Part shown: piece after piece, positions 11,856 to 32,935 of the stretch
Position numbering within the stretch: position 1 is the first letter of the stretch
How the letters are laid out: every line of letters starts with the position of its first letter
Source of the DNA: Nitrosospira sp. Nl5
Lineage (GTDB): Bacteria; Pseudomonadota; Gammaproteobacteria; Burkholderiales; Nitrosomonadaceae
Direction: 5' to 3'
DNA: 64,000 nucleotides
NCBI RefSeq assembly: GCF_900102495.1
Contig: NZ_FMVQ01000003.1
Coordinates: 186,001 to 250,000, forward strand
The notes under the pieces: generated by a model
Databases searched by the model: none
The model's input: the letters and a program-made list of their open reading frames with translations, nothing else
Told to the model about the DNA's origin: nothing
Position numbers and translations under genes: made by a program

Positions 11856-12097
11856 TACAAAAGCTCTTTGCCGACAGGCGCGCCAAAATCAACCGCGGTA
11901 TGCAGGTTTTCAGGCGTTATGTTGGCAAGCAACTGGGCAAGGTCGTATTTATTTAGGCGAATCGGTTCGATGACGATGCGACCGTCCTCTTCACGAATAT
12001 CAACCGGATCATCTAAACCCAAACGGGCAGCTTCCATGATCCCGGCAGGGATGCGAACGGATGCACTGTTGCCCCACTTTTTCACGATCACGCGCAC
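11855..12097 (-). CDS. mazE: MazE-type antitoxin
   Basis: An 80-residue AbrB/MazE-fold DNA-binding antitoxin. The N-terminal half (VKKWGNSASVRIPAGIM) is the dimeric DNA-binding swapped-hairpin domain, and the C-terminal acidic/flexible part (residues 50-80) would wrap MazF. It is upstream of and overlaps mazF. A palindrome lies 26 bases before the start and may be the autoregulatory operator. Confidence 0.92.
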   Translation of the reverse strand: MRVIVKKWGNSASVRIPAGIMEAARLGLDDPVDIREEDGRIVIEPIRLNKYDLAQLLANITPENLHTAVDFGAPVGKELL

Positions 12098-12122
12098 GAT
12101 AATTTCCTATTGAAAATAGTGT

Positions 12123-12135
12123 CGATATGATATCG
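12123..12135. promoter_or_regulatory. Palindrome upstream of mazEF, possible MazE operator
   Basis: The 13 bases cgatatgatatcg form a perfect palindrome around a central base, 26 bases upstream of the mazE start codon. MazE-MazF complexes usually bind palindromes overlapping their own promoter. Assignment as operator is inference. Confidence 0.4.
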
Positions 12136-12737
12136 GAGAAATCCGAATGTGTCTACATTGTAGATACGTAATGAGCGGCAGACATGAATTGCCGTCAGAG
12201 TGACTGGACTGGATGTTGCGTTCTTGAAGTTGCCGCTGATGAGTTTTATTTCTATCAAACTGGCCAGATCATCGGATAATTATGTCGCTTAAAATAGCAA
12301 GTAGCGGCCGGCAGGAATAACAATGCGGGGCGCATACAATTTGTTGCTTTTGTATATTCTGTCACCTATAATGCCTCCCGCGCCGGTTGCAATTTGTTAG
12401 CAACTTTCGTCAATGGGATATGCCTTCTCCATCGGCGCAACTCAAAAAAAGAAGTAGTAGACGAACGCTCCTCCATAAAAAGAAACTTCTGGTTGCTGTA
12501 ATTCCATAGATAGTCATGCTGGTGAATTAAACGTTGGATATCGAAAGTCTGATGTCCACAGTTTTGCCAAAACCAATCCATGCAGGGGGATGATTCAAGT
12601 CGGCTTGTACGAGAATTGCCGGATTGAATTGTTGTTTCCGCGTTACTTCCTCCATAGGATTACCATGTGCTGTGCGTTCCGCTGCCCGGGGCGCGGCAGG
12701 CTAGGGGACTTAGGAATAAATTAGATGGTAAAAACTT
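12136..12737. other. Intergenic stretch with no supported gene
   Basis: About 600 bases separate mazEF from the polysaccharide region. Only a 71-codon minus-strand frame (12366-12581) is present; I see no family likeness or good ribosome-binding site for it. The DNA is AT-rich around 12290-12500. It probably carries the promoter of the downstream + strand locus, but I could not identify boxes with confidence. Confidence 0.5.
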
Positions 12738-14264
12738 ATGGATGTCTTATTCGTTAATCCAGACTCGTCCGCGAAGGCCTACCAAGGGCTGGCAAAAGTA
12801 TATTCTGCGATCGAGCCGCCGACCTGGGCGCTCCTGTTAGCCGAGTCCTGTCGTTCCAAAGGTTTTGGGGTTGGCATTCTGGACTGCGATGCTGAAAGGC
12901 TTTCTCTTGAGCAATCAGTGCTGCGCATAGAGGAGCTGCGCCCGCGCCTGATCGTATTTGTGGTTTATGGCCAGAATCCGAATTCGGGAACGACCAGCAT
13001 GATTGGTGCGCTGGATCTTGCGCGGACTCTCAAGGAAAATGATCCTGCCTGCCGGATATGTTTCGTCGGATCGCATACGAGCGCCTTACCCCGGGAAGTC
13101 TTGTCGTACTCCTGCGTCGACATCGTGCTTTTAAACGAGGGTGTATACGCTCTGCATGCATTGCTGAAGAGCAATCTGGGCGATGATCTGGCATACATAA
13201 AAGGAATCGGCTATAAGAAGAGCGGTCCGGGAGACGATTTGATCCCTACGATTAATGCTCCGCAAGGCATTGTCCCCCAGCAACGGATGGATGAGGATAT
13301 GCCGGGATATGCCTGGGACCTGCTCCCCTACAAGGCCAAGCCACTCGATTTATATCGCGCGCATTTTTGGCACGCGGAGTTCGACCATGCAAAGCGCACT
13401 CCCTTTGCCGCCATCTATACCTCGCTGGGTTGCAATTTTGGTTGCGACTTTTGCATGATCAACATCGTCAACCGTGTCGATAACGGTGATGAAGTAAACT
13501 CTTCACATTCAAGGGGGATGCGTTTCTGGAGCCCGCAATGGGTGGGCAGGGAAATGGAAAAACTTGCCGGCATGGGTGTCCGCACCTTGCGCATCAGCGA
13601 TGAGATGTTTTTCCTTAACCGAAAGTATTACGAGCCGATATTGAACCAGGTAATTGACCGCGGCCTGGATTTCAATATGTGGACTTACTCCCGGGTTGAC
13701 ACCGTGAGAAGGGATTATCTCGACCTGTTCAGAAAAGCCGGGGTAAGCTGGCTCGCTTTAGGAATTGAAGCGGGCAACCAGGTGGTTCGGCAGGAGGTTT
13801 CCAAAGGTTCCTTCCAGGAAGTCAATATCCGTGAAGTCAGTAAGACGATCGGCGATGCAGGGATCAATATCATCAGCAATTTCATTTTCGGTTTTCCGGA
13901 CGATACTCTGGAAACAATGCAGCAAACGCTGGATCTGGCCATGGAGTTGAATAATGAAATGACCAATATGTATCCCTGCCAGGCGCTTCCGGGCAGTCCG
14001 ATGCATCATTCAGCCAAGAAAAACGGCTGGAAATTGCCAGATACGTTTGAAGGCTATGCCTTTCTGTCTTATGAATGCCAGCCCTTGCCGACAAAGCACC
14101 TCAGTGCCGCTCAGGTGCTTAAATTCCGTGATGAAGCATGGCAAAAGTACTTTTCCAATCCGGCTTATCTTGCGCTTGTGGGAAAGAAATTTGGCGAGCA
14201 AGAGCGGAAGAATGTCGAGGATATGGCCAGCGTTAGACTCAAGAGAAAGTTGCTGGGCGATTAA
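12738..14264 (+). CDS. B12-binding-domain radical SAM enzyme
   Basis: A 508-residue protein with an N-terminal cobalamin-binding-like domain (residues 1-150; MDVLFVNPDS start and GSHTSALP segment) and a radical SAM core. The [4Fe-4S] motif is CxxxCxxC in LGCNFGCDFCMIN, about residues 233-245. Such enzymes carry out methyl transfers to unactivated carbon or phosphorus or other radical rearrangements; several unknown ones occur in polysaccharide clusters. The classical cobalamin DxHxxG motif is not seen, so B12 binding is uncertain. It is the first gene of the + strand locus and ends five bases before the sugar kinase gene, which suggests a role in modifying the sugar or lipid carrier made here (inference). 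Confidence 0.85.
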   Translation: MDVLFVNPDSSAKAYQGLAKVYSAIEPPTWALLLAESCRSKGFGVGILDCDAERLSLEQSVLRIEELRPRLIVFVVYGQNPNSGTTSMIGALDLARTLKENDPACRICFVGSHTSALPREVLSYSCVDIVLLNEGVYALHALLKSNLGDDLAYIKGIGYKKSGPGDDLIPTINAPQGIVPQQRMDEDMPGYAWDLLPYKAKPLDLYRAHFWHAEFDHAKRTPFAAIYTSLGCNFGCDFCMINIVNRVDNGDEVNSSHSRGMRFWSPQWVGREMEKLAGMGVRTLRISDEMFFLNRKYYEPILNQVIDRGLDFNMWTYSRVDTVRRDYLDLFRKAGVSWLALGIEAGNQVVRQEVSKGSFQEVNIREVSKTIGDAGINIISNFIFGFPDDTLETMQQTLDLAMELNNEMTNMYPCQALPGSPMHHSAKKNGWKLPDTFEGYAFLSYECQPLPTKHLSAAQVLKFRDEAWQKYFSNPAYLALVGKKFGEQERKNVEDMASVRLKRKLLGD

Positions 14265-14269: not shown

Positions 14270-15265
14270 ATGGTCATTACGCGTACACCGTTCCGTATCT
14301 CCTTCTTCGGGGGTGGGACCGACTATCCGACGTGGTTTCAGCAGCATGGCGGCGTCGTCGTCGCCACCACCATAGACAAGTATTGCTATATCAGTTGCCG
14401 TTATTTGCCCCCGTTTTTCGAGCACAAATACCGGATAGTTTATTCCAGGATTGAGAATGTGGTCGATCCTGCCGAAATTCAACATCCTGCTGTACGCGCT
14501 GTCTTGCAGCACATGGGCTGCAAGAGCGGTCTTGAGATTCACCATGATGGGGATTTGCCGGCCCGGTCCGGACTGGGCTCCAGCTCATCGTTCACGGTTG
14601 GTTTGTTAAATGTCCTGAAAGCACTCGAGGGGTGTTATATCTCGAATGACGAGCTGGCCGCCCTGGCTATCCGCATTGAGCAGGAAGTGATCGAGGAAAA
14701 CGTCGGCTCCCAGGATCAGATTTCCGCCGCCTACGGCGGTTTCAACCGTATAGAATTTCTTCGCGATGGAGGATTCCGGGTGGATCCGATCATCTTGCAA
14801 AAGGACAGGCTGGAGTCCTTTCAGGATAGCCTGATGTTATTTTTCACCGGATTTTCCAGGATTGCATCAGAAATTGCCAAATCTAAAATCGACAACATAC
14901 GCCACCGCCAAGCCGAATTGATGCGAATGAAAGAAATGGCCGATGAGTCGATTTCTATCCTGAATGGGTCCGGTTCCCTGGACGGGTTTGGCCACCTGCT
15001 CGATCAGGGTTGGCAATACAAGAAAAGCCTCTCGGATAAAGTAAGCACTCTGGAAATCGACCAGATGTACGTCGCGGCGCGTGAGGCAGGTGCGCTTGGA
15101 GGTAAGCTGCTGGGTGCAGGCGGCGGTGGCTTTATGCTGTTTTTCGTCAGGCCGGAAGATCAGCCCCGAGTTCGCGAGCGCTTGAATAAACTGATTCATG
15201 TGCCATTCCGCTTTGAAAACTCAGGAAGCCGGGTGGTGCTCTATCAGCCGAATGGATTGCAATAA
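14270..15265 (+). CDS. hddA: GHMP sugar kinase, HddA-like (D-glycero-alpha-D-manno-heptose-7-phosphate kinase)
   Basis: A 331-residue GHMP-family kinase. It starts with RTPFRISFFGGGTDYPTWF, has the ATP-binding loop LPARSGLGSSSSFTVGLLN (near residue 95) and the C-terminal GALGGKLLGAGGGGFMLFF. These features fit HddA, which phosphorylates heptose-7-phosphate at C1 in the alpha configuration on the way to GDP-heptose. Fucokinase-like GHMP enzymes are the alternative. The heptose reading is supported by a GmhA homologue, an HddC-like nucleotidyltransferase and a GmhB homologue in the same locus. It overlaps the next gene by one base (TAATG). Confidence 0.85.
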   Translation: MVITRTPFRISFFGGGTDYPTWFQQHGGVVVATTIDKYCYISCRYLPPFFEHKYRIVYSRIENVVDPAEIQHPAVRAVLQHMGCKSGLEIHHDGDLPARSGLGSSSSFTVGLLNVLKALEGCYISNDELAALAIRIEQEVIEENVGSQDQISAAYGGFNRIEFLRDGGFRVDPIILQKDRLESFQDSLMLFFTGFSRIASEIAKSKIDNIRHRQAELMRMKEMADESISILNGSGSLDGFGHLLDQGWQYKKSLSDKVSTLEIDQMYVAAREAGALGGKLLGAGGGGFMLFFVRPEDQPRVRERLNKLIHVPFRFENSGSRVVLYQPNGLQ

Positions 15266-16224
15266 TGGCGGGAAACCTGGAAAAGAACTCGCGGATTTAC
15301 GTAGCGGGCCACCGCGGCCTTATCGGCTCTGCATTCGCGCGTTATTTTCACGCCGAAGGTTATCAAAATCTGATTGTCCGTGATCATGCATCACTTGACT
15401 TGACCGATGCAGGCCAAGTTCAGTCGTTTTTCGACGAGCAGCGTCCAGAAGTGGTGGTGATGGCGGCAGGCAAGGTGGGCGGCATTGTCGAAAATAAAAC
15501 ATATCCCGCCGATTTCATTACCCAGAATCTCGCCATTCAGCTAAATATAATTCGCTCCGCGCATCTTGCGGGGGTGAAGCGCCTGATTTTTTTCGGGTCA
15601 TCCTGCATGTACCCAAGGGAATGCACGCAGCCCATGGCGGAAGATACCCTACTGACCGGCAAGCCTGAACCCACCAGCATCGCATATGGGATGGCTAAAC
15701 TGACAGGTACCCAGATGTGCCTTTCTTACAACCAGCAGTATGGACAAGGCCGTTTTTTGCCGGTGATTCCCAATAGTGTGTATGGGGCCAACGATAATTT
15801 TGATCCGGTCTCGGGGCATGTCCTTTCGGCCCTGATCAATCGGTTTCATACCGCAAAACAGAACGGAAGTGCCCAGGTAACGCTTTGGGGAAGCGGCTCC
15901 CCACGCCGGGAATTTCTTTATTCCGACGATCTGGTGGGTGCCTGCCTGACACTTTTGCAAACTGATCCGGACAGTATCGCGTTACCCATCAATATTGGCC
16001 CAGGCGAAGATGTATCCATCAAGGAATTGGCCGAGCTGGTCACAGATGTCGTTGGCTATGCAGGCGGAATTGAGTGGGATACCACCAAGCCGGACGGATC
16101 TCCCAGAAAATTGCTGGAGAGCGCCCGGATGAAGGCAATGGGATGGTCTGCCAAAACGACGCTCAAGGATGGTATCCGCCAAACTTATGACTGGTATTTG
16201 AGGAATAGATGTGAACCAGCTTGA
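15265..16224 (+). CDS. GDP-fucose-synthase/ColC-type NAD(P)-dependent epimerase-reductase
   Basis: An extended SDR of 319 residues. The dinucleotide loop is GHRGLIGSA; the active site is SSCMYP with YGMAK as the Tyr-x3-Lys pair. The fucose-synthase epimerase residues are kept: the Cys in SSCMYP and the His in GHVLSALINRFH. Fcl and ColC both epimerise and reduce a GDP-4-keto-6-deoxysugar; Campylobacter homologues do the same on GDP-heptose derivatives. A ColD-type dehydratase three genes on favours a ColC-like role, while the heptose genes favour a heptose substrate. No 4,6-dehydratase (gmd) lies in the window, so the 4-keto donor must come from elsewhere. Overlaps the next gene by 14 bases. 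Confidence 0.85.
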   Translation: MAGNLEKNSRIYVAGHRGLIGSAFARYFHAEGYQNLIVRDHASLDLTDAGQVQSFFDEQRPEVVVMAAGKVGGIVENKTYPADFITQNLAIQLNIIRSAHLAGVKRLIFFGSSCMYPRECTQPMAEDTLLTGKPEPTSIAYGMAKLTGTQMCLSYNQQYGQGRFLPVIPNSVYGANDNFDPVSGHVLSALINRFHTAKQNGSAQVTLWGSGSPRREFLYSDDLVGACLTLLQTDPDSIALPINIGPGEDVSIKELAELVTDVVGYAGGIEWDTTKPDGSPRKLLESARMKAMGWSAKTTLKDGIRQTYDWYLRNRCEPA

Positions 16225-17044
16225 CGAATCGTTGTACGCGCGCCTCAGCGAAAAAGCACGCTGGGTGTGGGAAGAGACCTTGAGAATTCATCGGCGGTCG
16301 CCAGAGACGCGCGTTGCCTCATCCTTGTCTCCTATCGAGATATTCGTCGTTCTTTACTACGGCGGGTTCTTGCGCCAGGATAGCGGCAACCCGCGTTGGG
16401 CGGGGCGGGATCGCTGTATTATCAGCAAAGGCCATGGCTCACTGTGCATGTACCCCATCCTGGCGGACTTAGGGTATTTTCCGATGGAGGAGCTGGAGAA
16501 AGTTTGTCAGGAAGGCAGTTTTCTTGGAGGCATTCCCGATCCGGTGATTCCAGGATACGAAACCGTTAACGGTTCGCTGGGGCACGGAGCCGGCGTTAGT
16601 TCCGGCATGGCGCTAGCTCTCAAGCGGCTTGAAAAAGATCAGGCTGTCTATGTGGTAACCGGGGATGGTGAACTTCATGAGGGTTCAAACTGGGAGGCCT
16701 TCATGTTCGCCGCGCAGCATCGCTTGGACAACCTGACGGTGATCGTGGACAACAACCAGATCAGCATGCTGGGCCCAACCGATGAAATCGTATCCCATCG
16801 CGACTTGCGAAATAAATTCGAGGCGTTTGGCTGGGCAGCGAGAGACGTACCGGACGGGCATTCGGTCACGGCGATAGGCGAAGCATTGCTTGAATGCCGG
16901 CACGACCGTTCAGGCAAACCTAAGGTCGTTATCGTGAACACGCGAAAAGGTAACCGGGTGCCGGGATTGGAGAATGCACCGCTGTCGCACGTTACCGCGA
17001 TCAAGTCCGACCTGGTTGACCAATTATTAGGAGACAGCGCATGA
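16211..17044 (+). CDS. Transketolase, N-terminal (TPP-binding) subunit
   Basis: A 277-residue protein equal to the N-terminal third-to-half of transketolase. The thiamine-diphosphate motif is GDGELHEGSNWEAF followed by NLTVIVDNNQISMLG (the GDG...NN motif), and the upstream SKGHGSLCMYPIL carries the conserved His region. GTG 16211 is the start, inside the end of the previous gene; the stop overlaps the next gene by four bases (ATGA). With the following gene it should form a two-subunit enzyme that moves two-carbon ketol units. Its position in a sugar-nucleotide operon suggests either supply of sedoheptulose-7-phosphate for heptose synthesis or transfer to a nucleotide sugar to give a branched sugar (both inference). 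Confidence 0.9.
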   Translation: MNQLDESLYARLSEKARWVWEETLRIHRRSPETRVASSLSPIEIFVVLYYGGFLRQDSGNPRWAGRDRCIISKGHGSLCMYPILADLGYFPMEELEKVCQEGSFLGGIPDPVIPGYETVNGSLGHGAGVSSGMALALKRLEKDQAVYVVTGDGELHEGSNWEAFMFAAQHRLDNLTVIVDNNQISMLGPTDEIVSHRDLRNKFEAFGWAARDVPDGHSVTAIGEALLECRHDRSGKPKVVIVNTRKGNRVPGLENAPLSHVTAIKSDLVDQLLGDSA

Positions 17045-18060
17045 GTGCTTTACTGCCGCTTAAACCACGGGCCATGCGTGACACCCTCCTGGAGGCAACA
17101 TACGAAGCAATGCTGCGGGATTCCGGCATATTTTTTGTCACCGCGGATTTTGGTTCCCCGGTCATAGACAAGATTCGCACCGATTGCTCGGCCCGGTTCG
17201 TCAATGTGGGTATTGCCGAACAAAACCTGATCAACGTCTCCGCCGGTTTGGCGCTGGAAGGGTTCAAAGTTTTTGCCTACGCCATTGCTCCCTTCATTAC
17301 CATGCGCTGCTACGAGCAGATTCGTGTCAATCTGTCGCTTCTCTCCGAGGTGCGGCCCATCAATGTGAATCTGATTGGTGTCGGGGCCGGGTATAGTTAT
17401 GTGGTCTCTGGCCCCACCCATCAGTGCTACGAGGACCTGACCGTAATGCGAGCGCTGCCGAATATGCGGATATTCTCCCCGGCGGACCAGGTAGTGGCGG
17501 CAGCTTTGCCTGCATTATGCCTGGATAGCAACGGGCCGAAATATTTGCGTCTCGACGCGCAAGTACTGCCTGTTTTATACGAAATATCCCCAGCTCTCGA
17601 TTCGGGATTCCATGTACATCGCAAGGGCGACAAGATTTGCCTGATTGCTACCGGGTACATGGTGCATACGGCGTTGAAAGTGGCGGATAAGCTCGCAGCT
17701 TCCGGCCTATCAGTCGGTGTGGTCGATCTCTTTGATCTTTGCAGTTTCTCGGAGGATAAGCTGCAATCCATGCTCGCCTCTTACCAGGGCGTTGTTACGA
17801 TGGAAGAGGGGTTTCGTGGACGGGGGGGAATGGACGCCATGATGTTCGACTACATTGCCCGTCGTGGAATCAATGTCCGCATGTTCAATATCGGAGTCGA
17901 GGGAGGATACCGTTTCGAACTTGGGGAAAGGAGCGTTCTCCACGAAAAGGTGGGGATAGGCGTGGAATCGGTCACTGGAAGCGTTGAGAGATTTGAGCGG
18001 ACATTTTCGGCGAGCAGCCCGCCCGATTTAAAGAACCGAGGCCAAAAGGTGATTGCGTGA
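17041..18060 (+). CDS. Transketolase, C-terminal (pyrimidine-binding) subunit
   Basis: A 339-residue partner of the preceding gene. It contains the Pyr domain with the catalytic cofactor-activating Glu in NVGIAEQNLINVSAGLALEG and the C-terminal transketolase domain (KICLIATGYMVHTALKVADK; VVTMEEGFRGRGGMD). Split transketolases are common in archaea and in some secondary-metabolism or polysaccharide clusters, whereas central-metabolism transketolase in this group is normally one long chain. The genes are translationally coupled. A 36-codon frame begins within its stop region. Confidence 0.9.
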   Translation: MSALLPLKPRAMRDTLLEATYEAMLRDSGIFFVTADFGSPVIDKIRTDCSARFVNVGIAEQNLINVSAGLALEGFKVFAYAIAPFITMRCYEQIRVNLSLLSEVRPINVNLIGVGAGYSYVVSGPTHQCYEDLTVMRALPNMRIFSPADQVVAAALPALCLDSNGPKYLRLDAQVLPVLYEISPALDSGFHVHRKGDKICLIATGYMVHTALKVADKLAASGLSVGVVDLFDLCSFSEDKLQSMLASYQGVVTMEEGFRGRGGMDAMMFDYIARRGINVRMFNIGVEGGYRFELGERSVLHEKVGIGVESVTGSVERFERTFSASSPPDLKNRGQKVIA

Positions 18061-18164
18061 GAAAAGATTTGCTGATTTTGAAGGCCGATAATTGTCCTAT
18101 TGCCTGGAATTTAGTCAATGCCGGCAGGAGAAAGCCGGTGCGTAAACAAGTAGAGCAACCATAA
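18057..18164 (+). CDS. Very short frame after the transketolase genes (possible gene remnant)
   Basis: A 35-residue frame starts at GTG 18057, overlapping the transketolase stop as the other genes of this operon overlap each other, and ends at TAA 18162-18164. The product (RKDLLILKADNCPIAWN... ) matches nothing I know. It may be the truncated start of a lost gene, since overlapped starts are the rule here, or chance. The next gene starts 82 bases further on with its own ribosome-binding site. Confidence 0.25.
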   Translation: MRKDLLILKADNCPIAWNLVNAGRRKPVRKQVEQP

Positions 18165-18246
18165 ATATATACTCCGTTTGAGATGGAAGTTGGGTAGAGC
18201 GGAAACGATGCTGTCCTTTATTGGGGTTTGGAGTTAGGGGAGAACC

Positions 18247-19416
18247 ATGAAATTTCCATTGATGCGCAACAACATCCTGCGTGAAGATCTTGATGCGGTT
18301 ATCGAGCATTTGAAGCAGGACGATCCGATTCTCACCCATGGAGCCAACGTACGCGCTTTCGAAGCCGAATGGTCGGAATGGCTGGGCGTGAAATACAGCG
18401 TATTCGTCAATTCCGGGGCGTCAGCCAACCTGCTGACCATGGCGGTACTCAAGATTCGCCATCCGGAGGGTGGCGAAGTCATTGTCCCGCCGTTGACATG
18501 GATTTCCGATGTCGCATCAGTGCTGCAAAACGGGTTCAAACCTGTTTTTGCGGATATAGACCCTCAGACTCTTGCCATGGATCCCGCACAGATTCTAGCC
18601 AAAATAAACAAAAATACACGTGCGGTATTCCTCACCCACATTCAAGGATTCGATGGGCTGACCGACGGCCTCCTGGATGAATTGAAATGCCGCGATATTC
18701 CGCTGATCGAAGATGTCTGCGAATCGCACGGCGCAACCCACAACGGTAAGAAACTCGGGAGCCTCGGCTGGATATCGAATTTTTCGTATTACTATGCTCA
18801 CCATATGAGTACCATCGAAGGCGGCATGATCTGTACCGACGACCCGGAGGTTTATCAACAGGTTCGGATGCTGCGTTCTCATGGTATGGTTCGTGAAGCC
18901 ACCGACCCCGTTGTGCGTGCAGCCTATCTTTCGGAGAATCCGGAGCTAAACCCGGACTTCATCTTTGCGTTCGCTGCCTATAACACCCGTAACACAGAGA
19001 TTGGCGGCATCATGGGACGCAGCCAGCTCAAGCGCCTGGATCGCATCGTGAAGCGCCGGACTGAAAACCTGACGCGCTTCCTGAACCAGATCGATTCGAG
19101 CAAGTACCGAACAGACTTCAAGCTGGAAGGTTCCAGTAATTACGCCTTCAACCTCATTCTGAAGCGTCCGGATGACGATCTGGTTCAACGCCTCATGCAG
19201 AAGATGAAAGAATCCGGTGTTGAGTTCAGGCGAGGCAGCGCGGGCGGCGGCAATCAAACCCGTCAACCTTATCTGAAGGGTGTCGTTCCGGATGGTCATC
19301 ATCGCGAGTTTCCCGAAACCGAGCATGTCCACTTCTATGGCTTCTATATTGGCAATTTTCCGGATCTCAGGGATGAGGAAGTGGATGAGCTTTGCACGAT
19401 TCTGAACGCGGCATAA
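18247..19416 (+). CDS. ColD-type PLP-dependent sugar 3-dehydratase (DegT/DnrJ/EryC1 fold)
   Basis: A 389-residue member of the DegT family. In ordinary sugar aminotransferases of the fold a Lys binds PLP; here that position is His in YYYAHHMSTIEGGM (about residues 180-193), exactly as in GDP-4-keto-6-deoxymannose 3-dehydratase (ColD) and related 3-deoxy enzymes. IEDVCESHGATHNG (near 156) provides the Asp that contacts the PLP ring. ColD removes the 3-hydroxyl of GDP-4-keto-6-deoxymannose with glutamate as co-substrate on the way to colitose. The same chemistry on a GDP-4-keto heptose is possible. A GGGGAG ribosome-binding site precedes ATG 18247. Function as 3-dehydratase is strongly suggested; the substrate is inferred. 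Confidence 0.85.
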   Translation: MKFPLMRNNILREDLDAVIEHLKQDDPILTHGANVRAFEAEWSEWLGVKYSVFVNSGASANLLTMAVLKIRHPEGGEVIVPPLTWISDVASVLQNGFKPVFADIDPQTLAMDPAQILAKINKNTRAVFLTHIQGFDGLTDGLLDELKCRDIPLIEDVCESHGATHNGKKLGSLGWISNFSYYYAHHMSTIEGGMICTDDPEVYQQVRMLRSHGMVREATDPVVRAAYLSENPELNPDFIFAFAAYNTRNTEIGGIMGRSQLKRLDRIVKRRTENLTRFLNQIDSSKYRTDFKLEGSSNYAFNLILKRPDDDLVQRLMQKMKESGVEFRRGSAGGGNQTRQPYLKGVVPDGHHREFPETEHVHFYGFYIGNFPDLRDEEVDELCTILNAA

Positions 19417-19427
19417 GGTAATAGCGG

Positions 19428-20135
19428 GTGACAGCGATCTCGGCCGTTATTCTCGCAGGCGGTATAGGCAGCCGGCTTCGCAGTGTCGTGCCTGACCTTC
19501 CCAAACCGATGGCCCCTGTCAGGGACCGCCCGTTTCTTGAATATCAGCTCGACTACTGGATTACCCAGGGAATAAGCAGCTTTGTGCTCTCTGTCGGCTA
19601 CCGGCACGAGGCCATTGTCGATTACTTCGGCAACCGCTACAAGGATGCTGGACTTGATTATGTCATTGAGCGAGTACCTCTGGGTACTGGTGGCGGCCTT
19701 CTGTTAGCCATTGAGAGAATCGGCAGCGACAAACCATTTTTGCTATTGAATGGCGATACATATTTTGCGGTGGATTTGAAGGCCTTGAGCGAGTTTGCCC
19801 GGGAAAATAATGCCGACTGGTGTTTCTCCCTGTTTCGCGCAAATGAACAAGGCCGGTACATGGGCATGGAGGTTTCGCCACAAGGGAAAATAACCTCGCT
19901 CAAGTCGGGTACCGGTCATCCCGGTCGCCTCGCCAATGGCGGCGTATATTGGGTGCACCCTCGCGCCTTGTCCGGCAGCAAATTTTTACCCGGTGACAAG
20001 ATCTCCCTGGAAGATGACATTCTCCCGGCCGCGATAGGTTCCGGTCAACGGCTGTTTGGCATCGAATTCCCCGGCACTTTTATCGATATCGGTGTGCCGG
20101 ATGACTACCATCGCGCACCAGCACTATTGGCATAA
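19428..20135 (+). CDS. hddC: Heptose-1-phosphate nucleotidyltransferase, HddC-like
   Basis: A 235-residue nucleotidyltransferase with a Rossmann-like fold. The signature is VILAGGIGSRLRSVVPDLPK followed by PMAPVRDRPFLEY, with PLGTGGGLLLAIERI and LLLNGDTYFAVD (metal-binding Asp) further on. It resembles HddC, which transfers GMP to D-glycero-alpha-D-manno-heptose 1-phosphate. Glucose- or mannose-1-phosphate enzymes are the alternative. The start codon is GTG 19428, eleven bases after the dehydratase stop; gmhA follows 17 bases downstream. Confidence 0.85.
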   Translation: MTAISAVILAGGIGSRLRSVVPDLPKPMAPVRDRPFLEYQLDYWITQGISSFVLSVGYRHEAIVDYFGNRYKDAGLDYVIERVPLGTGGGLLLAIERIGSDKPFLLLNGDTYFAVDLKALSEFARENNADWCFSLFRANEQGRYMGMEVSPQGKITSLKSGTGHPGRLANGGVYWVHPRALSGSKFLPGDKISLEDDILPAAIGSGQRLFGIEFPGTFIDIGVPDDYHRAPALLA

Positions 20136-20152
20136 TAGAAAAGAGGTTCAAA

Positions 20153-20734
20153 TTGGATCCAATCAAAGGTCTCAAGAAAAACCTGGAAATGTCCATTCAA
20201 GCCAAGCATCAGTTCCTGGCTGACGATGAGGCCCTGTCGCTGTTTGCCAAAGCTGTAGAAACCGTCGTCGACCGCTATCAGCGCGGAGGGCGTATCTACA
20301 TCGCTGGTAATGGCGGTTCAGCGGCCGATGCGCAACACCTGGCTGCGGAATTCGTCAGCAAGCTGGCGCGTGATCGGGCCCCATTACCAGCCGAAGCCCT
20401 CACAGTTGACAGCTCCACTATCACCGCCATCGCCAACGATTACGGCTATGACCAGGTGTTCTCACGGCAGCTGGCCGGCAAGGCGACGGATAAGGACATA
20501 TTTCTGGGCATAACCACTTCTGGGCAATCGCCCAATGTTCTCAAAGCGCTGGAGCAATGCCGCATCATGGGGGTGCCAAGCATTGTTTTTTGCGGGCGGG
20601 ACGGCGGCGCGGCCAGGGTAATGGCCGACCATTGCATTATCGTACCCGGCGCAGACACCAGCACCATCCAGGAGCTGCATATCATATTAGCCCACACGCT
20701 ATGCGAGTGTGTTGAATCGGCCATGTTTGATTAA
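20153..20734 (+). CDS. gmhA: Sedoheptulose-7-phosphate isomerase, GmhA-like (SIS domain)
   Basis: GmhA turns sedoheptulose 7-phosphate into D-glycero-D-manno-heptose 7-phosphate, the first step of both ADP- and GDP-heptose pathways. The 193-residue SIS protein has the phosphosugar-binding IAGNGGSAADAQHLAAEFVS and ITTSGQSPNVLKAL loops, and QELHIILAHTLCE near the end. The likely start is TTG 20153 (an AAAGAGG ribosome-binding site lies at 20139-20145). Next to hddC- and hddA-like genes it most likely feeds the dedicated surface-heptose pathway; whether a second gmhA serves LPS core is unknown. Confidence 0.92.
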   Translation: MDPIKGLKKNLEMSIQAKHQFLADDEALSLFAKAVETVVDRYQRGGRIYIAGNGGSAADAQHLAAEFVSKLARDRAPLPAEALTVDSSTITAIANDYGYDQVFSRQLAGKATDKDIFLGITTSGQSPNVLKALEQCRIMGVPSIVFCGRDGGAARVMADHCIIVPGADTSTIQELHIILAHTLCECVESAMFD

Positions 20735-20765
20735 TGATTTTTTGACAGCCAGAAAAGGAAATAAA

Positions 20766-21704
20766 ATGATTTATAACATCCTCGTCACCGGCGGGGCCGG
20801 CTACCTTGGCAGCACCATGGTCCCCGACCTGCTCAACGCCGGCCACAAGGTTACCGTCCTGGACAATTTCATGTTCAAGCAGGCGACGCTCAACCACGTT
20901 TGCCACCACCCGAACTTCTCGGTGGTGAAAGGTGATATTCGCGTCGAAAGTGTTATCGCTCCGCTCATGAAAAAGGCGGACGTTATTATTCCCCTGGCCG
21001 CGCTGGTAGGCGCTCCGCTTTGCAGCCTGGACCCCGTAGGGGCCACTACGGTCAATCATGACGCCATCACCCTGATGCTGAAGCACCTCTCCCGGGAGCA
21101 GATTGTGCTCATGCCTACTACCAACAGCGCATACGGAACAGGCGACGAAAACAACCACTGCACCGAGGAATCACCACTGCGTCCCATTTCGCAGTATGCC
21201 ATCGAGAAGGTCGGAATCGAAAAGGAACTGATGCAGCACCCGAACGCCATCAGCTTCCGCCTGGCGACGGTATTTGGCATGTCGCCCCGCATGCGCATTG
21301 ACCTGCTGGTGAACGATTTTACCTATCGTGCTGTATACGACCGTTTCGTTGTTCTGTTCGAAAGCCACTTTAAACGCAACTACGTCCACGTTCGTGACGT
21401 CTCGCGCGTTTTCCAGCATGCCCTCATTAATCACGAAAAGATGAAGGGCCAGATCTACAACGTCGGACTTTCCGACGCCAACGTTTCCAAGAAAGAACTG
21501 TGCGAACATATCCAGAAACAGGTTCCCAACTTCATTTTCATCGAGGCCCCGGTAGGCAAGGACCCGGATCAGCGTAATTACATCGTCTCCAATGCCAAGA
21601 TCGAGGCCACCGGCTTCAAAACGGAATTCTCGCTCGATCGCGGCATCGGTGAATTGATCAAGGGTTACACCATGATCAGGAATTCCCTTTACGGCAACGT
21701 TTGA
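20766..21704 (+). CDS. NAD-dependent epimerase/reductase of nucleotide sugars
   Basis: An extended SDR of 312 residues starting MIYNILVTGGAGYLGS, with an AAAGGAAAT ribosome-binding site before ATG 20766. The Tyr-x3-Lys pair is in SQYAIEKVG. The segment TTNSAYGTG stands where 4,6-dehydratases have a Thr-Asp-Glu, so it is not a dehydratase; 4-epimerase or ketoreductase activity fits. Probable role: converting the keto sugar or setting a stereocentre in the heptose or deoxysugar made by this locus (inference). It overlaps an alternative TTG start of the following NUDIX gene. Confidence 0.8.
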   Translation: MIYNILVTGGAGYLGSTMVPDLLNAGHKVTVLDNFMFKQATLNHVCHHPNFSVVKGDIRVESVIAPLMKKADVIIPLAALVGAPLCSLDPVGATTVNHDAITLMLKHLSREQIVLMPTTNSAYGTGDENNHCTEESPLRPISQYAIEKVGIEKELMQHPNAISFRLATVFGMSPRMRIDLLVNDFTYRAVYDRFVVLFESHFKRNYVHVRDVSRVFQHALINHEKMKGQIYNVGLSDANVSKKELCEHIQKQVPNFIFIEAPVGKDPDQRNYIVSNAKIEATGFKTEFSLDRGIGELIKGYTMIRNSLYGNV

Positions 21705-21727
21705 CCCAGCCGATCCAATCCAGGGCC

Positions 21728-22390
21728 ATGTATTACTCTCCTCTATTTCCGCATCCCGCAATGTCTTCTTCTGCGATGAAGGTGGACAAGCTAGAGAAAA
21801 AAAACGAGGAATTAGCGCCGGTTCGGCTCCATTCCCGTCACCTTGCCTGCGAGAATACGATCTTCTCCGTGTTTCTCGATCACGTTACCGGCACGCAGGG
21901 CCATGAGGTATTGCTGTACCTGAGTGTATTGCCCAAGGGCGGGGCGGAAGGCATGGTGGCAGGCGTGGGCGTGCTGCCCATCAAGGATGGTAAATTGGGA
22001 TTGATCCGCGTATTTCGTCATCCCCTTAGCCGATGGTCCTGGGAAGTTCCCAGGGGTCTCGTGAATGCCGGTGAAACGGCGGAACAAGCTGCGGTAAGGG
22101 AGTTGCGAGAAGAAACGGGGTTCGCGGCTAAACCGACGCAATTCGTCGCCCTTGGGGTGATGGCGCCAGAAGCTGGCGTGATTGCCGGCTGCATCCAGTT
22201 GTTCTCGGTAATTTTGGAGAAAGATGAAAGTGTTGGTGCGGTCGACGGAGAACTAGGCCATGGAGAATTGGCTTTCTTTCGCCGCGACGAGATTACCGCC
22301 ATGATCGAATCCGGAAGTGTCCAGGACGGCTGTACAATGTCCGCCATCCTGAAGCATACAATCAAAGAACGCTGGTTCGAAACGCAATGA
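21728..22390 (+). CDS. NUDIX hydrolase, ADP-sugar-pyrophosphatase-like
   Basis: A hydrolase of 220 residues from ATG 21728 (other in-frame starts: TTG 21701, ATG 21761 and 21776). The NUDIX box is complete: GLVNAGETAEQAAVREL continuing REETGF (Gx5Ex7REUxEExGU). Overall it is like the ADP-ribose pyrophosphatase group, which splits nucleoside-diphosphate sugars. In this locus it may hydrolyse a GDP-sugar or remove a toxic by-product. Last gene of the coupled + strand run before the exporter. Confidence 0.82.
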   Translation: MYYSPLFPHPAMSSSAMKVDKLEKKNEELAPVRLHSRHLACENTIFSVFLDHVTGTQGHEVLLYLSVLPKGGAEGMVAGVGVLPIKDGKLGLIRVFRHPLSRWSWEVPRGLVNAGETAEQAAVRELREETGFAAKPTQFVALGVMAPEAGVIAGCIQLFSVILEKDESVGAVDGELGHGELAFFRRDEITAMIESGSVQDGCTMSAILKHTIKERWFETQ

Positions 22391-22495
22391 AGTTTGTCAA
22401 ACCTAGAGTCAAGCCAGGGAATATATTGAACCTTTGGTTCTGCATCCAGCTATATCCATCCTTACTAATCATTCATTAAATTTAAGTAAATCCGA

Positions 22496-23356
22496 GTGGA
22501 ATTACAGGAGCTAAAGTATCTGAAACATTCAGAGATAGTCTATAGGGTAGGGGTTGGCCGATCCAGGTTTTCGCTGGCAATTGAAGACGTAGCGTCGGGC
22601 TTCAAGTCATACAAAGTTTGGGCCCTACTAGGCTGGCAAGACATCAAGCAACGCTATCGTCGTTCAGTCCTGGGTCCTTTCTGGTTAACAATCAGTACAG
22701 GAATTATGATCGGTATGCTGGGTGCCTTGTACGGGCAGCTATTCCGTATGCCGCTGGATGTATACCTGCCATTCCTGGCAACAGGCATAATCATCTGGGC
22801 GCTTATCGCATCGTTGCTAAATGAGTCATGCAATGTATTTATCGCGGCCGATTCGATGATCAAGCAAGTGCACGTGCCATTGACCCTACATGTTTGCCGC
22901 ATGGTTTACAGGAACGTGATCATATTTTTTCATAATCTGATTGTGTTGGTGCCCGTTTTTTTCTTTTATGGAAAAGAGATAGATCTGACCAACTTGTTAT
23001 TGGTGCCAATGGCGATTGGGCTGGTTGCACTCAATGGCGTCTGGGCCGGGCTAATTCTCGGTACATTCTGCACCCGTTTCAGGGATATTCCGCCGATAGT
23101 TACCAATTTGGTCCAGGTGATATTTTTCGTTACTCCCATTATGTGGCTACCCGAGATTATCAAAGGGCGCAGTGCTGCATGGCTTGTCGAGGCAAATCCC
23201 CTATACCATTTTATTGAATTATTTCGTGCCCCCTTCCTTGGGGCCGCAGCCCCCCTTAACTCCTGGATAGTTGTGTTGAGCATTACCCTGATCGGTATGG
23301 TAACAACTATTTTCACATTGTGGAGATTCCGCAATAGGGTAGCCTATTGGCTATGA
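22496..23356 (+). CDS. wzm: ABC transporter permease for polysaccharide export (Wzm/TagG type)
   Basis: A 286-residue inner-membrane protein of the ABC-2 family with about six transmembrane segments (for example FWLTISTGIMIGMLGALYG and LIVLVPVFFFYG), and the motif QRYRRSVLGPFW near the N-terminus that is typical of polysaccharide and teichoic-acid exporters. With the next gene it should move a lipid-linked glycan across the inner membrane. GTG 22496 is the start. The stop codon overlaps the ATPase start (ATGA). Confidence 0.92.
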   Translation: MELQELKYLKHSEIVYRVGVGRSRFSLAIEDVASGFKSYKVWALLGWQDIKQRYRRSVLGPFWLTISTGIMIGMLGALYGQLFRMPLDVYLPFLATGIIIWALIASLLNESCNVFIAADSMIKQVHVPLTLHVCRMVYRNVIIFFHNLIVLVPVFFFYGKEIDLTNLLLVPMAIGLVALNGVWAGLILGTFCTRFRDIPPIVTNLVQVIFFVTPIMWLPEIIKGRSAAWLVEANPLYHFIELFRAPFLGAAAPLNSWIVVLSITLIGMVTTIFTLWRFRNRVAYWL

Positions 23357-24126
23357 ATACAGATGTTATTCGCGCTCGGGATTTGAGGGTTGAGTTTCCG
23401 ACTTATACCGCTGACCGCTCATTGAAACGTGCTGTATTAAAGGCAACCACAGGGGGTCGCATTGCCCGAGATTCCCGATCTTATATTTCCGTGAGGGCAA
23501 TCGACGGAATTAGTTTTAACCTCAAGTCCGGCAACCGGGTCGGCTTACTGGGTCACAACGGGTCGGGAAAAACCACCTTGCTCCGGGTATTGGCGGGGGC
23601 ATATGAGCCGGTCTCGGGTTCATTGGAAATGCATGGGAGGATTGCCTCTTTGCTGGATATCTCGATGGGTATGGAGGGAGATGCCACAGGGTATGACAAC
23701 ATTCTTTTGCGTGGCTTAATGATGGGGCTGGACGCAAAAGAGATCAGAAAACAAATGCCGGAAATAGCCGAATTCACCGAGCTTGGTGAATATCTCGACA
23801 TGCCGTTGCGTACCTACTCCAGCGGGATGCAGATTCGGCTGGCATTTGCCGTATCAACGGCAATCTCCGCGGATATCCTGCTTATGGACGAGTGGCTAAG
23901 CGTGGGTGATGAAAACTTCCAACAGAAAGCGGCCAAGCGCCTTCAGCGGCGGGTAGATGAATCCTCCGTGCTGGTGATCGCCTCGCATTCGCCGGAATTG
24001 ATTTCCAAAGTCTGCAACCGGGCGTTCCGTCTTGATCATGGAAAAATTATTGAAGAATTTGATCCTCGCCAGAAAACAATGAGCAGCCCACCTGAGGCAA
24101 GTTTCGCAAGGAGTGAATCGCTGTGA
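23353..24126 (+). CDS. wzt: ABC transporter ATPase for polysaccharide export (Wzt/KpsT type)
   Basis: A 257-residue ATPase with Walker A GHNGSGKTTLLRVLAG, signature YSSGMQIRLAFAV and Walker B ILLMDEWLSVGDE. ATG 23353 overlaps the permease stop. Many Wzt proteins carry a C-terminal carbohydrate-binding domain of about 150-180 residues; this one stops after the ATPase, so it should belong to the class that exports without recognising a capped chain end. It overlaps the next glycosyltransferase gene by four bases (GTGA). Confidence 0.92.
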   Translation: MNTDVIRARDLRVEFPTYTADRSLKRAVLKATTGGRIARDSRSYISVRAIDGISFNLKSGNRVGLLGHNGSGKTTLLRVLAGAYEPVSGSLEMHGRIASLLDISMGMEGDATGYDNILLRGLMMGLDAKEIRKQMPEIAEFTELGEYLDMPLRTYSSGMQIRLAFAVSTAISADILLMDEWLSVGDENFQQKAAKRLQRRVDESSVLVIASHSPELISKVCNRAFRLDHGKIIEEFDPRQKTMSSPPEASFARSESL

Positions 24127-25961
24127 ACAAACTTAATGTTGCTGTACCCTGGAATCAGTCAAGATATATACCCTGTAACGGTTTTCACCCGCTGTATCGG
24201 CCGTTATTCGAAAATAACCCTTTCTTGTCTTTCAATGTCCTTGATGAGGTGGCGTTCGCTAGACGTCTCGCAGAAGACAATGCTTATTCCGATGAGATTT
24301 TCGAACAAGTAGCGCAAATGCCAGAGCCATTCGCGGAGAAATATGGCGACTTGCCACTGGCCAGGAAGCTTGCGGACCATATTACGCGAGATGAATTATG
24401 GCTGACTAGCGAGTTGCCTGGCGATGTCGAATTTCATCATACCAGCCCACTTACCAACGGTGAGCGGCCCTTTGTGTTTCACTGCGAGTCTTTTCTACCT
24501 ATTTTTATGCCATTTGCGAATCAAGGGCGTGGGGCGATAAAGAACTCTGGCGAATTGCGAAAATTTTATGGACGGTTGCTGGGTTCTGAAAATTGCCTTG
24601 GAATTTTTTCGCACCTGCCTGAGACGCTTGATCAGATCAGAAGTTTTTTTCGCAATGACCAGATAAATGAAAAACTCCGGCGTTCCCGGATTGGGCTGGC
24701 GGACCGGACGCTGAAAATTTTATTGGATGCGCGGAGAGAAACTTATTCCGAACGTCCGATGTTTTTATTTACCAATTCAGCTCACCAGAATCCAAGATCA
24801 TTTGCTCTGCGCGGCGGCGTTATAAGCTTGCTCTTCGCGGAAAGATTTTTGCGTTCAGGTAGGGAGGGGTTATTTATCTTCAGAACAGCCCGGCCTACGG
24901 ATGAGGAGCTGCGGGGCTGGGGGATTGATCTCGCGTTCATGCACTCGCTCGAAAATCGGAAGATTATATGGCTGGAAGGGCATCTTTCCGAACATGAGCA
25001 ATTGCGCCTGTTTATGACAGCTGACATTTTGTTGCTACCAAGCATTAACTTACACTCGGTTACCATCATGCAAGCACTCGCTGCAGGTGCGATACCCGTT
25101 GTAACAGATACTTATGGGCCTGACCTTTACGTGAAGGATGAGCAAAATGGGGTAGTATTAAAAGGAGTTCGGGATGCAGTGTGGCTTGAGGATACAGTTG
25201 AGAGAGTAATTGCTGACAAGCACCAAAATTTTAAGGGGCTTATGGCGGGTCTTGTTGAGCAGATGTACGGTCGAATCACGGTCCTCATAGATAATCCGCA
25301 ATACTTATTGGAAATGCGCGCGTGCGGGCGGAGACGGGTAAAACAAGAATTTTCCGGAACTGCGTTCCGAGACCAAATATCAGAAGAGATTGTTGGGCTG
25401 TGGCGGGATCATAAAAAGAAGAGAAGAGTCAAAAATAGTTCGCGGCATGGCCTGGCATTGCTTGATACCGATGAGTTAGCGGGGTTATTTGAAAGTCCAA
25501 CGCAGCCATATTTGGTATTAAACACGGAGTATGAAAAGGTTTACTCTTGCAAAGGGGTTTTTTTTTATTGTGCTCGTGAAACAACCGTACATGGACTAGA
25601 TCAATTTTCCGTTCTTGCCACTAGGCGCAAACGACAATTAGGGGCGGAAGGGATCAAAATTGCAGCAGTATTTCGTGATCTTGAAGTCCATCTGCTTTCT
25701 TTAGAAAAGATTGGACGGGATTCGGGCTCGCTGACGCTTAAACTTCAATATCGTCTTATGGAGTGGACTCGTCCATACCCTATCGTTTTCTCCTCGCTTA
25801 AAAAAGTTTATTTTTTGTCGCGGAAGACGCGCCGGCTGTTTTCACTGGATGGTATCGCGGACGTTCGGGAATGGGTTCGTCCGTATCCTGCCGTTTTCTC
25901 GGTGCTAAAAGGGCTTTGGTCCATACAGTTAAAGGTAAGGCAGGCATTTTCGTCAAAGTGA
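24123..25961 (+). CDS. Glycosyltransferase, GT-B fold, with a repeated C-terminal tail
   Basis: A 612-residue protein. The middle region (about 220-420) has a GT4-like donor-binding half: FMTADILLLPSINLHSVTIM followed by QALAAGAIPVVTDTYGPDLY. The N-terminal half would bind the acceptor. The last about 70 residues contain two copies of a short motif, EWTRPYPIVFSSLKK and EWVRPYPAVFSVLKG, each followed by a K/R-rich piece ending FS. That repeat could bind membrane or the exporter (speculation). The DNA is AT-richer than the genes before it. Specificity unknown. Confidence 0.75.
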   Translation: MNKLNVAVPWNQSRYIPCNGFHPLYRPLFENNPFLSFNVLDEVAFARRLAEDNAYSDEIFEQVAQMPEPFAEKYGDLPLARKLADHITRDELWLTSELPGDVEFHHTSPLTNGERPFVFHCESFLPIFMPFANQGRGAIKNSGELRKFYGRLLGSENCLGIFSHLPETLDQIRSFFRNDQINEKLRRSRIGLADRTLKILLDARRETYSERPMFLFTNSAHQNPRSFALRGGVISLLFAERFLRSGREGLFIFRTARPTDEELRGWGIDLAFMHSLENRKIIWLEGHLSEHEQLRLFMTADILLLPSINLHSVTIMQALAAGAIPVVTDTYGPDLYVKDEQNGVVLKGVRDAVWLEDTVERVIADKHQNFKGLMAGLVEQMYGRITVLIDNPQYLLEMRACGRRRVKQEFSGTAFRDQISEEIVGLWRDHKKKRRVKNSSRHGLALLDTDELAGLFESPTQPYLVLNTEYEKVYSCKGVFFYCARETTVHGLDQFSVLATRRKRQLGAEGIKIAAVFRDLEVHLLSLEKIGRDSGSLTLKLQYRLMEWTRPYPIVFSSLKKVYFLSRKTRRLFSLDGIADVREWVRPYPAVFSVLKGLWSIQLKVRQAFSSK

Positions 25962-26969: not shown

Positions 26970-27006
26970 AAATTGGAAGCGTTAAGGACTTTATGGACTT
27001 GTCAAA

Positions 27007-27222
27007 ATGAATGATCTCGGGAAGGAAGAAGAATTCTGTCTTTCACAAGGTGATATAGCGCTACGCGTATATACGTCCTGCCTTTTAGGGCATGACAAAT
27101 CCCTTATCTTGTACAGCGGCGGTAACACATCGGCCAAGATCGTTGAGAAGAATGCTTTTGGCGAAGATGAAGACTTTCTCTACGTGCCCCCATTATCTAT
27201 TTGCATGCTGGAGCATCACTGA
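27007..27222 (+). pseudogene. Truncated copy of the class II aldolase/SDR gene
   Basis: The 71-codon frame matches the N-terminal part of the intact gene at 28538. Bases 27049-27185 align without gaps to 28580-28716; by hand I count about 25 differences in 137 bases, and 35 of 46 encoded residues are identical (shared GGNTS and EKNAFGEDE). After 27185 the likeness stops abruptly and the frame ends. The first about 40 bases differ. This is a relic left when the sequence with the methyltransferase was inserted or when the aldolase gene was duplicated. It is unlikely to be functional. Confidence 0.8.
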
Positions 27223-31444: not shown

Positions 31445-31493
31445 GAAAACAATACACAACAACACTGTTCTTTGCACCGGGAGGTAGCGCAAC

Positions 31494-32930: not shown

Positions 32931-32935
32931 GCGTG

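Follow-up and report, generated by a model that had tools for sequence, protein, structure and literature searches.

Which sugar is produced by a gene cluster that unites enzymes for GDP-heptose with a ColD-type dehydratase, a two-gene transketolase and an ATP-binding cassette (ABC) exporter? The question is raised by a locus of Nitrosospira sp. Nl5, located in a stretch of 64,000 nucleotides (contig NZ_FMVQ01000003.1, positions 186,001 to 250,000) that was analysed at full length and is called the window here. A preliminary description had covered positions 14270-24126 of the window. The genes named there were intact open reading frames (ORFs) on the + strand, packed with overlaps or short gaps; the fcl-like reductase, ColD-type dehydratase, two-gene transketolase and ABC exporter were all found as described, and the Pfam and NCBIfam domain searches were consistent with the earlier gene names. 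The whole locus was larger (12738-36741). A radical S-adenosylmethionine (SAM) gene ended 5 bases before the start of the kinase gene, and a downstream run (30515-36741, with gaps of less than 50 bases or overlaps) held GmhB and a predicted L-2-hydroxyglutarate oxidase. The most probable product is a GDP-activated 3-deoxy-heptose branched at C4, which would leave the cell as part of a polysaccharide; this reading carries moderate confidence. The genes most relevant to it are given below, where paired figures denote the bit score and the NCBIfam cut-off.

12738-14264, + strand: radical SAM enzyme with a B12-binding domain, a member of the cassette (Pfam PF04055/PF02310)
14270-15265, + strand: HddA-like D-glycero-D-manno-heptose-7-phosphate kinase (NF049969, 147.6 bits; PDB 4usm, 3k85, 4n3o)
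15265-16224, + strand: fcl-like (GDP-fucose-synthase-like) reductase (NF047922, 400/500 bits)
16211-17044, + strand: split transketolase N subunit (tkN), RI type, with H26R and H100I (PF00456)
17041-18060, + strand: split transketolase C subunit (tkC), with S385P, H461G, D469S and R520A, Glu for thiamine diphosphate (ThDP) kept (PF02779/PF02780)
18247-19416, + strand: ColD-like C3-dehydratase, probably dependent on pyridoxal phosphate (PLP), with His replacing the aminotransferase Lys (2gms, ColD, E 2.3e-52)
19428-20135, + strand: HddC-like heptose-1-phosphate guanylyltransferase (NF049965, 160/300; best PDB entries 5xhw and 6jq8, heptose-pathway proteins)
20153-20734, + strand: GmhA-like sedoheptulose-7-phosphate isomerase (TIGR00441, 169/209 bits)
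20709-21704, + strand: Cj1427-like GDP-heptose C4-dehydrogenase, a short-chain dehydrogenase/reductase (SDR), called dh4 (6vo6, E 6.6e-109)
22496-23356, + strand: ABC exporter permease, Wzm (NF050109, 296/380)
23347-24126, + strand: ABC exporter ATPase, Wzt (PF00005)
34004-34585, + strand: GmhB heptose-bisphosphate phosphatase (TIGR00213, 177/149.6 bits, over the cut-off)
34582-35787, + strand: predicted L-2-hydroxyglutarate oxidase (NF008726, 357.5/299)

The split transketolase had the ThDP-binding and pyrimidine domains with the catalytic Glu, and six His and phosphate-site residues of canonical transketolases were replaced. In comparison with E. coli TktA, the replacements were H26R, H100I, S385P, H461G, D469S and R520A; H66, H261, R358, E411 (the catalytic Glu) and H473 were retained. 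The E. coli residues H26, H100, S385, H461, D469 and R520 are taken here to contact the hydroxyl of the donor and the phosphates of the substrates, with H100 presumably at the C1 hydroxyl of the donor. Two full-length transketolases (677 and 740 residues) were also encoded in the genome, and all of these residues were kept in them. The tkN protein scored 132 bits for PF00456 against 34 bits for E1_dh (PF00676), so it was not of the E1 type, and the pair had transketolase domains, not the ThDP decarboxylase architecture of YerE. Split transketolases with the R26/I100 pattern (I at position 100) are termed RI type. They all fell into one clade (34 of 68 rows), which had a support of 100/100. The records concerned carried the labels Pseudomonadota, Chlorobiota, Nitrospirota and Omnitrophota, and an archaeal metagenome-assembled genome (MAG) was among them; many of the records were MAGs.

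The gene neighbourhoods of split transketolases were compared in 81 loci among the matches listed (80 plus L044; L047, a copy of L099, was left out of the counts). Two peptide-pattern seeds bias this sample, which is not a census. It comprised 42 RI-type loci, 32 of other patterns (the complete His set in most cases), 4 with an HQHH pattern and 3 without a usable N subunit. Gene calls were score thresholds against a few queries, absence denotes that no similar sequence was found, every count is reduced where contigs end, and relatedness means that the genomes are not independent samples. The RI-type loci contained dh4 in 32 cases, a His-type dehydratase in 29, a Lys-type one in 2, HddA in 30, HddC in 31, the radical SAM gene in 30, the fcl-like gene in 26 and GmhA in 12; rfbF and rfbG were found in none. 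The corresponding numbers for the 32 other-pattern loci were 0 for dh4, 12 and 7 for His-type and Lys-type dehydratases, 2 for HddA, 1 for HddC, 0 for the radical SAM gene, 3 for the fcl-like gene, 0 for GmhA, 12 for rfbF and 11 for rfbG. Where at least 8 kb was present on both sides, the C4-dehydrogenase occurred in 18 of 20 RI-type loci and the dehydratase in 17 of 20. Moreover, dh4, dehydratase and hddA occurred together in 26 of the 42 RI-type loci (16 of the 20 with 8 kb on both flanks). The genome search for such clusters that had been recommended earlier found the order radSAM-hddA-fcl-tkN-tkC-colD-hddC-gmhA-dh4 repeated in another genome of the same order (L044) and, in many of the loci fetched, the greater part of the set; hence the gene association is not due to chance. 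The cassette recurs in many bacterial groups. It was also carried by two of the four HQHH loci (L097, L098), and cassette genes were seen in two of the three loci without a usable N subunit (L091, L095). Among the other-pattern loci with rfbF or rfbG, a His-type dehydratase was present in 10 of 12, without gmhA or dh4. The partner common to the heptose-type and rfbF/rfbG sets is the 3-dehydratase, and the ThDP enzyme tracks this dehydratase more closely than the heptose isomerase.

Some split transketolases kept four His residues, had lost H461 and occurred with rfbF-rfbG and mostly an rfbH-like gene, which are genes for CDP-4-keto-3,6-dideoxyglucose. These loci (L099, L100, L102, L103, L105, L108, L114, L115 and L120, from Geobacter, Paenibacillus and others) are candidates for yersiniose-like pathways in which a transketolase replaces YerE. 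At least two split-transketolase pairs per locus were seen in L089, L096, L129 and L131.

What substrate, then, would reach this enzyme? The SDR at 20709-21704 had been called an epimerase; the gene was confirmed and the name was not, because the protein matched 6vo6/6vo8 with an E value of 6.6e-109 and 367 bits over 308 residues, the next PDB entry reaching 70 bits. The matched entry, titled 'putative sugar-nucleotide epimerase/dehydratease', is taken here to be Cj1427, the GDP-heptose C4-dehydrogenase of Campylobacter. Judged by this similarity, the SDR is closest to a Cj1427-type C4-dehydrogenase, above other SDRs. According to section 19 of PMC10680097, Cj1427 oxidises C4 of GDP-D-glycero-manno-heptose, and its bound NADH is re-oxidised by alpha-ketoglutarate, which yields L-2-hydroxyglutarate. 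Because a Cj1427-like enzyme is encoded in the cluster, a 4-keto group would be available without need for a 4,6-dehydratase and with O6 kept. The order of steps, previously regarded as open, is thereby narrowed, as the C4-dehydrogenase would give the 4-keto substrate. A 3-deoxy, a 3,6-dideoxy and a branched-chain heptose had been offered as products; the 3-deoxy and branched forms are supported, and the 3,6-dideoxy form by 4,6-dehydration is not, since O6 would be kept. Among these alternatives, the branched form is the one to which the residues and the gene neighbours of the transketolase point.

The gene for the predicted L-2-hydroxyglutarate oxidase directly followed gmhB. A similar gene occurred near 9 of the 42 RI-type loci versus 0 of the 32 other split-transketolase loci; it directly adjoined dh4 in 5 of those 9 and likewise in L183, a locus found with dh4 as the seed. 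No such oxidase was found in 22 other genomes of the genus (best match about 30 bits). The enzyme could recycle the by-product of the C4-dehydrogenase and regenerate alpha-ketoglutarate, and this circumstantial but specific association would back the Cj1427 mechanism in the locus. The DegT-family protein at 18247-19416 was closest to ColD, with an aligned His where aminotransferases have Lys. In section 24 of PMC10680097, under a heading with the word 'novel', GDP-3-deoxy-4-keto-heptose was made in vitro by Cj1427 together with a C3-dehydratase from another C. jejuni serotype. The window encodes together the C4-dehydrogenase and C3-dehydratase pair that was combined in vitro for C. jejuni. The predicted steps through GDP-3-deoxy-4-keto-heptose rest on homology to these characterised enzymes.

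The precursor itself was considered in the same way. The kinase, isomerase, nucleotidyltransferase and phosphatase required for GDP-heptose were present as the preliminary description had stated, GmhB over its cut-off and HddA, HddC and GmhA by similarity. A gmd gene elsewhere had been named beforehand as the finding that would count against a heptose substrate; no gmd over the cut-off was found in the whole genome, which was scored 99% complete (TIGR01472, best 72 of 415 bits). A gene first taken for gmd was RmlB (497/365 bits) and had RmlD as its neighbour. When E. coli Gmd served as the query, the RI-type loci all gave at most 144 bits, and the strongest matches, at about 450-580 bits, were in other loci. 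GDP-4-keto-6-deoxymannose was dropped as the substrate, being unsupported because the genome lacks a gmd over the cut-off. The earlier statement that the window holds no 4,6-dehydratase also held: PF16363 matched three SDRs in the window (the fcl-like protein, the C4-dehydrogenase and the SDR at 35788), none of them a dehydratase equivalog. A GDP-heptose 4,6-dehydratase was found neither among the window SDRs nor by the genome search for gmd, no model specific to the heptose enzyme having been run. No Pfam family of cupin C3/C5 epimerases was present in the 30 window ORFs scanned (other ORFs and contigs were outside this search), and no rfbF or rfbG equivalog was present among the locus proteins scanned.

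The neighbourhoods of dh4 were then used in the opposite direction. With dh4 as the seed, 398 genomes of the phylum gave 17 matches at E 1e-70, the own one included. A transketolase pair occurred in 9 of the 16 other loci (7 of RI type), an E1-like ThDP gene in 3 (L185, L194, L198) and neither in 4, the ThDP genes sought being transketolase-like and Solidesulfovibrio magneticus-E1-like ones only; a His-type dehydratase was detected in 9 of the 16. L186, one of the 16, and L053 are probably a single record. In L185, the radical SAM protein, HddA, ColD, HddC, GmhA and dh4 were 56-78% identical to their counterparts in the window, and a small pair of E1_dh-like and Transket_pyr proteins (65.8 and 47 bits) replaced fcl-tkN-tkC. 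A plasmid cassette of S. magneticus RS-1 had an E1-like pair (PF00676, 210 bits) and a His-type dehydratase, with identities of 56% for HddA, 59% for dh4 and 59% for the L-2-hydroxyglutarate oxidase. The S. magneticus and L185 counterparts had PF00676 E1_dh as their best family, unlike the tkN of the window. Plasmids of Azospirillum ramasamyi, A. lipoferum and A. thermophilum carried dh4, an E1-type pair by annotation (one of them checked by alignment) and a His-type DegT protein, and Azospirillum B510 and Az39 had transketolase pairs keeping four His residues. Either a 2-oxo acid is the donor throughout, or the type of ThDP enzyme sets the branch that is made. In L194, LuxC- and LuxE-like acyl reductase genes (11797-14044) were observed beside dh4 and the His-type dehydratase.

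According to these results, the following pathway may be proposed. The supply set would provide GDP-heptose, and the Cj1427-like enzyme would oxidise its C4, with alpha-ketoglutarate resetting the NAD; the L-2-hydroxyglutarate released would be turned back to alpha-ketoglutarate by the encoded oxidase. The ColD-like PLP enzyme would then take off the C3 hydroxyl. Beyond this point we infer a carbon addition, its donor, the reduction of the branch, the final sugar and its export in a polysaccharide. The split transketolase-like ThDP enzyme would extend the C4 ketone by two carbons, most likely as an acetyl group from a 2-oxo acid such as pyruvate and less likely as a glycoloyl group; the loss of the phosphate site and the change of the donor-side His to Ile favour acetyl. 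The fcl-like reductase, which retained S107, C109, Y136, K140 and H179 of E. coli Fcl, may reduce the new side-chain ketone. The product would be a 4-C-(1-hydroxyethyl)- or 4-C-(1,2-dihydroxyethyl)-3-deoxy-heptose, a nonose with nine carbons, which the radical SAM enzyme perhaps modifies further.

The same pathway could run with a glycoloyl (hydroxyacetyl) unit whose donor is not phosphorylated, for example hydroxypyruvate, as might suit an enzyme of the transketolase superfamily that keeps H66 and H261, and His is present at position 100 in some heptose cassettes (Azospirillum B510, Az39, L097/L098). In the RI clade, however, H100, presumably the contact of the donor C1 hydroxyl, is Ile. The same slot is also taken elsewhere by E1-like pairs, and pyruvate is used by some relatives of such pairs according to a portion of PMC12247030. 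Although the idea was put forward, untested, for the split-gene transketolases of miharamycin and amipurimycin (PMC12247030, section 9), a glycoloyl unit is considered unlikely here, while retaining some plausibility. Another reading is an unbranched GDP-3-deoxy-heptose: the split transketolase would do no more than supply GmhA with sedoheptulose-7-phosphate, and C4 would be reduced by the fcl-like enzyme, whether or not C5 is epimerised as well. The gmhA gene does lie in the same gene run, the GDP-fucose-synthase residues are kept in the fcl-like enzyme, and C. jejuni C4-reductases act on a 3-deoxy-4-keto sugar (PMC10680097, section 24). Against it stand the replaced donor and phosphate residues, the two normal transketolases in the genome, the presence of gmhA in just 12 of the 42 loci, the E1-like pairs in the same slot and the split transketolases that accompany rfbF/rfbG with no gmhA; we consider it improbable. 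The supply of sedoheptulose-7-phosphate as the main role was rejected in view of the residues, the neighbours and the two housekeeping copies. Given the replaced residues, the company of dh4 and the dehydratase over gmhA, and the E1-like substitutes, the split transketolase therefore probably does not have this role.

It might also be supposed that the ThDP pair and the dehydratase serve different sugars, the heptose set making one residue and the transketolase with the radical SAM enzyme another. The locus mixes several activities, and the radical SAM gene directly follows tkC in several more distant loci, sometimes with no dehydratase in view (L080, L083, L084). The co-occurrence of dh4, dehydratase and hddA in most RI-type loci speaks against this division, which appears the least probable of these alternatives. 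Several observations also weigh against the branched 3-deoxy-heptose. No transketolase or E1-like gene was found in 4 of the 16 dh4-seeded loci (L183, in which the contig ends at dh4, L192, L196 and L197), and no dehydratase was detected in L187, L188 and L191, which have dh4 and a transketolase. A His-type dehydratase was missing from the fetched stretch in 13 of the 42 RI-type loci, and for L073, L084 and L085 contig ends are not the reason, because 8 kb was present on both sides. Heptose cassettes with transketolases lacking R26/I100 (L097, L098, Azospirillum B510, Az39) imply that this pattern is not required for the heptose context. The E1-like activity in L185 is uncertain because its ThDP motif looks altered by eye, and a swap of ThDP type may alter the product instead of showing one donor. 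Because the epimerase residues C109 and H179 are kept, the fcl-like protein may have the role known from fucose or colitose synthesis instead of acting on a side chain; a gene of this kind was present in 26 of the 42 RI-type loci, and several others showed none. Furthermore, HddA (147.6/600), HddC (160/300), GmhA (172/276) and fcl (400/500) all scored below their NCBIfam cut-offs, so these names denote similarity, not equivalogs.

The structure of the radical SAM enzyme was modelled with AlphaFold2 (pLDDT 90.3, pTM 0.91). The closest fold was AprD4, a radical SAM 1,2-diol dehydratase (TM 0.68), followed by TsrM, MgmA, CysS, TokK and OxsB, and the profile search also placed 6fd2 (AprD4) first. 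The NCBIfam scores were 117 bits for HpnJ (cut-off 577.6) and 91 bits for BchE (cut-off 481). From the model, dehydration, C-methylation and ring closure all remain as candidate reactions. Two downstream genes, for methylthioadenosine phosphorylase (MTAP) and MtnA (31494-33994), could salvage 5'-deoxyadenosine for this enzyme, which is suggestive only. A homologue 66% identical to MTAP lies in the A. lipoferum cassette, and MTAP and/or mtnA were beside the cassette in the A. lipoferum and A. ramasamyi plasmids (L203, 14934-17199; L200, 15293-16396). A search of 18 genomes of the genus gave no match to MtnA, and neither MTAP nor MtnA was seen in the 82 loci scanned. A bolder and doubtful reading would take all of this as a widespread GDP-heptose-based pathway to nine-carbon branched sugars, in which the transketolase clade is a ketone-accepting, 2-oxo-acid-using acyl transferase, the AprD4-like radical SAM enzyme remodels the sugar, and recycling of both L-2-hydroxyglutarate and 5'-deoxyadenosine is encoded. 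The radical step could then, for instance, dehydrate the C6-C7 diol; a more speculative option is the closure of a carbocycle as in caryose. Caryose is named in part of PMC9026286 as a 4,8-cyclo-3,9-dideoxy-nonose, and a 3-deoxy-heptose with a branch at C4 is one way of drawing its carbon skeleton.

The remaining genes of the locus are as follows. The spacing at 24123-30511 was looser, between the upstream cassette and the downstream run.

21701-22390, + strand: Nudix hydrolase, recurring in some cassettes (PF00293)
24123-25961, + strand: glycosyltransferase (PF00534)
30515-31444, + strand: protein with weak glycosyltransferase similarity (no Pfam family; best NCBIfam score 21 bits)
31494-32384, + strand: MTAP (NF006492, 523/437)
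32403-32930, + strand: phosphoribosyltransferase (PF00156)
32933-33994, + strand: MtnA isomerase (TIGR00512, 447/279)
35788-36741, + strand: SDR epimerase/dehydratase (PF01370; no NCBIfam family over the cut-off)

The protein at 30515-31444 was conserved beside other cassettes, with 377 bits in L054, 373 in L066 and 308 in L184. The Nudix hydrolase was seen beside the cassette in the window and in L052, L059, L061, L092, L153 and L199; it occurred in 4 of the 42 RI-type loci and also on Azospirillum and Solidesulfovibrio plasmids. The G+C content of 24001-27000, which covers the glycosyltransferase and a protein of unknown function, was 0.454 versus 0.49-0.60 in the other 3-kb steps, and a separate origin of this stretch is possible. 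Upstream of the aldolase/SDR gene at 28481-30511, a short stretch at 27007-27189 matched residues 20-80 of that gene with 66% identity and is possibly a partial duplicate.

How does the locus relate to known systems? In the sections of PMC10680097 (19 and 24) and the part of PMC10440746 concerned, the C. jejuni GDP-heptose pathways share with the window the GDP-D-glycero-manno-heptose precursor, the Cj1427-type C4-dehydrogenase and a PLP C3-dehydratase; they also have C4-reductases and L-2-hydroxyglutarate as a by-product. However, the C. jejuni C4-dehydrogenase and HS:5 C3-dehydratase come from different serotypes and were combined in vitro, whereas in the window a single gene run contains both, along with a radical SAM gene and a ThDP pair, and an L-2-hydroxyglutarate oxidase is encoded in the locus. 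The word 'transketolase' is absent from the main text of PMC10680097. YerE of yersiniose A resembles the proposal in its ThDP-dependent two-carbon addition to a 3-deoxy-4-keto nucleotide sugar for lipopolysaccharide (LPS), as presented in part of PMC12247030, but it belongs to the decarboxylase family and acts on CDP-3,6-dideoxy-4-keto-glucose; the window has a member of the transketolase superfamily and, as proposed, a GDP-heptose substrate. The alphaKADH2 enzymes (aldgamycin, kosinostatin, kibdelomycin) are two-subunit ThDP enzymes that place an acetyl group from pyruvate onto a keto sugar; the same part describes them for secondary metabolites, and the window carries the transketolase type instead. 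Section 9 proposes C2 addition to a keto sugar for the split-gene transketolases of miharamycin and amipurimycin, a type with 13 sequences, all from Streptomycetes and none tested in vitro. The window-type enzymes, unlike this set, occur in polysaccharide-type loci of several phyla and have a changed active site. In these portions of PMC12247030, the YerE-like enzymes are the ones that branch LPS sugars, and transketolases appear only as untested proposals in Streptomyces secondary metabolites. No paper in the open-licence literature, judged mostly by listing entries and with subscription journals outside the scope, appeared to describe this gene combination, in keeping with the earlier remark that no pathway with exactly this set was described, and none matched an L-2-hydroxyglutarate oxidase with heptose.

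The system would work like the YerE and alphaKADH2 branching pathways, although the tests made place it in neither family. ThDP enzymes that branch nucleotide sugars are known; the precursor, the enzyme clade and the auxiliary steps would be new. The link between a Cj1427-type enzyme and an L-2-hydroxyglutarate oxidase suggests how cells handle that by-product. An in vitro synthesis of the proposed acceptor, GDP-3-deoxy-4-keto-heptose, is already on record (PMC10680097, section 24). If the proposal is true, nature would have one more route to tertiary-alcohol sugars, through a transketolase clade whose active site has been rebuilt.

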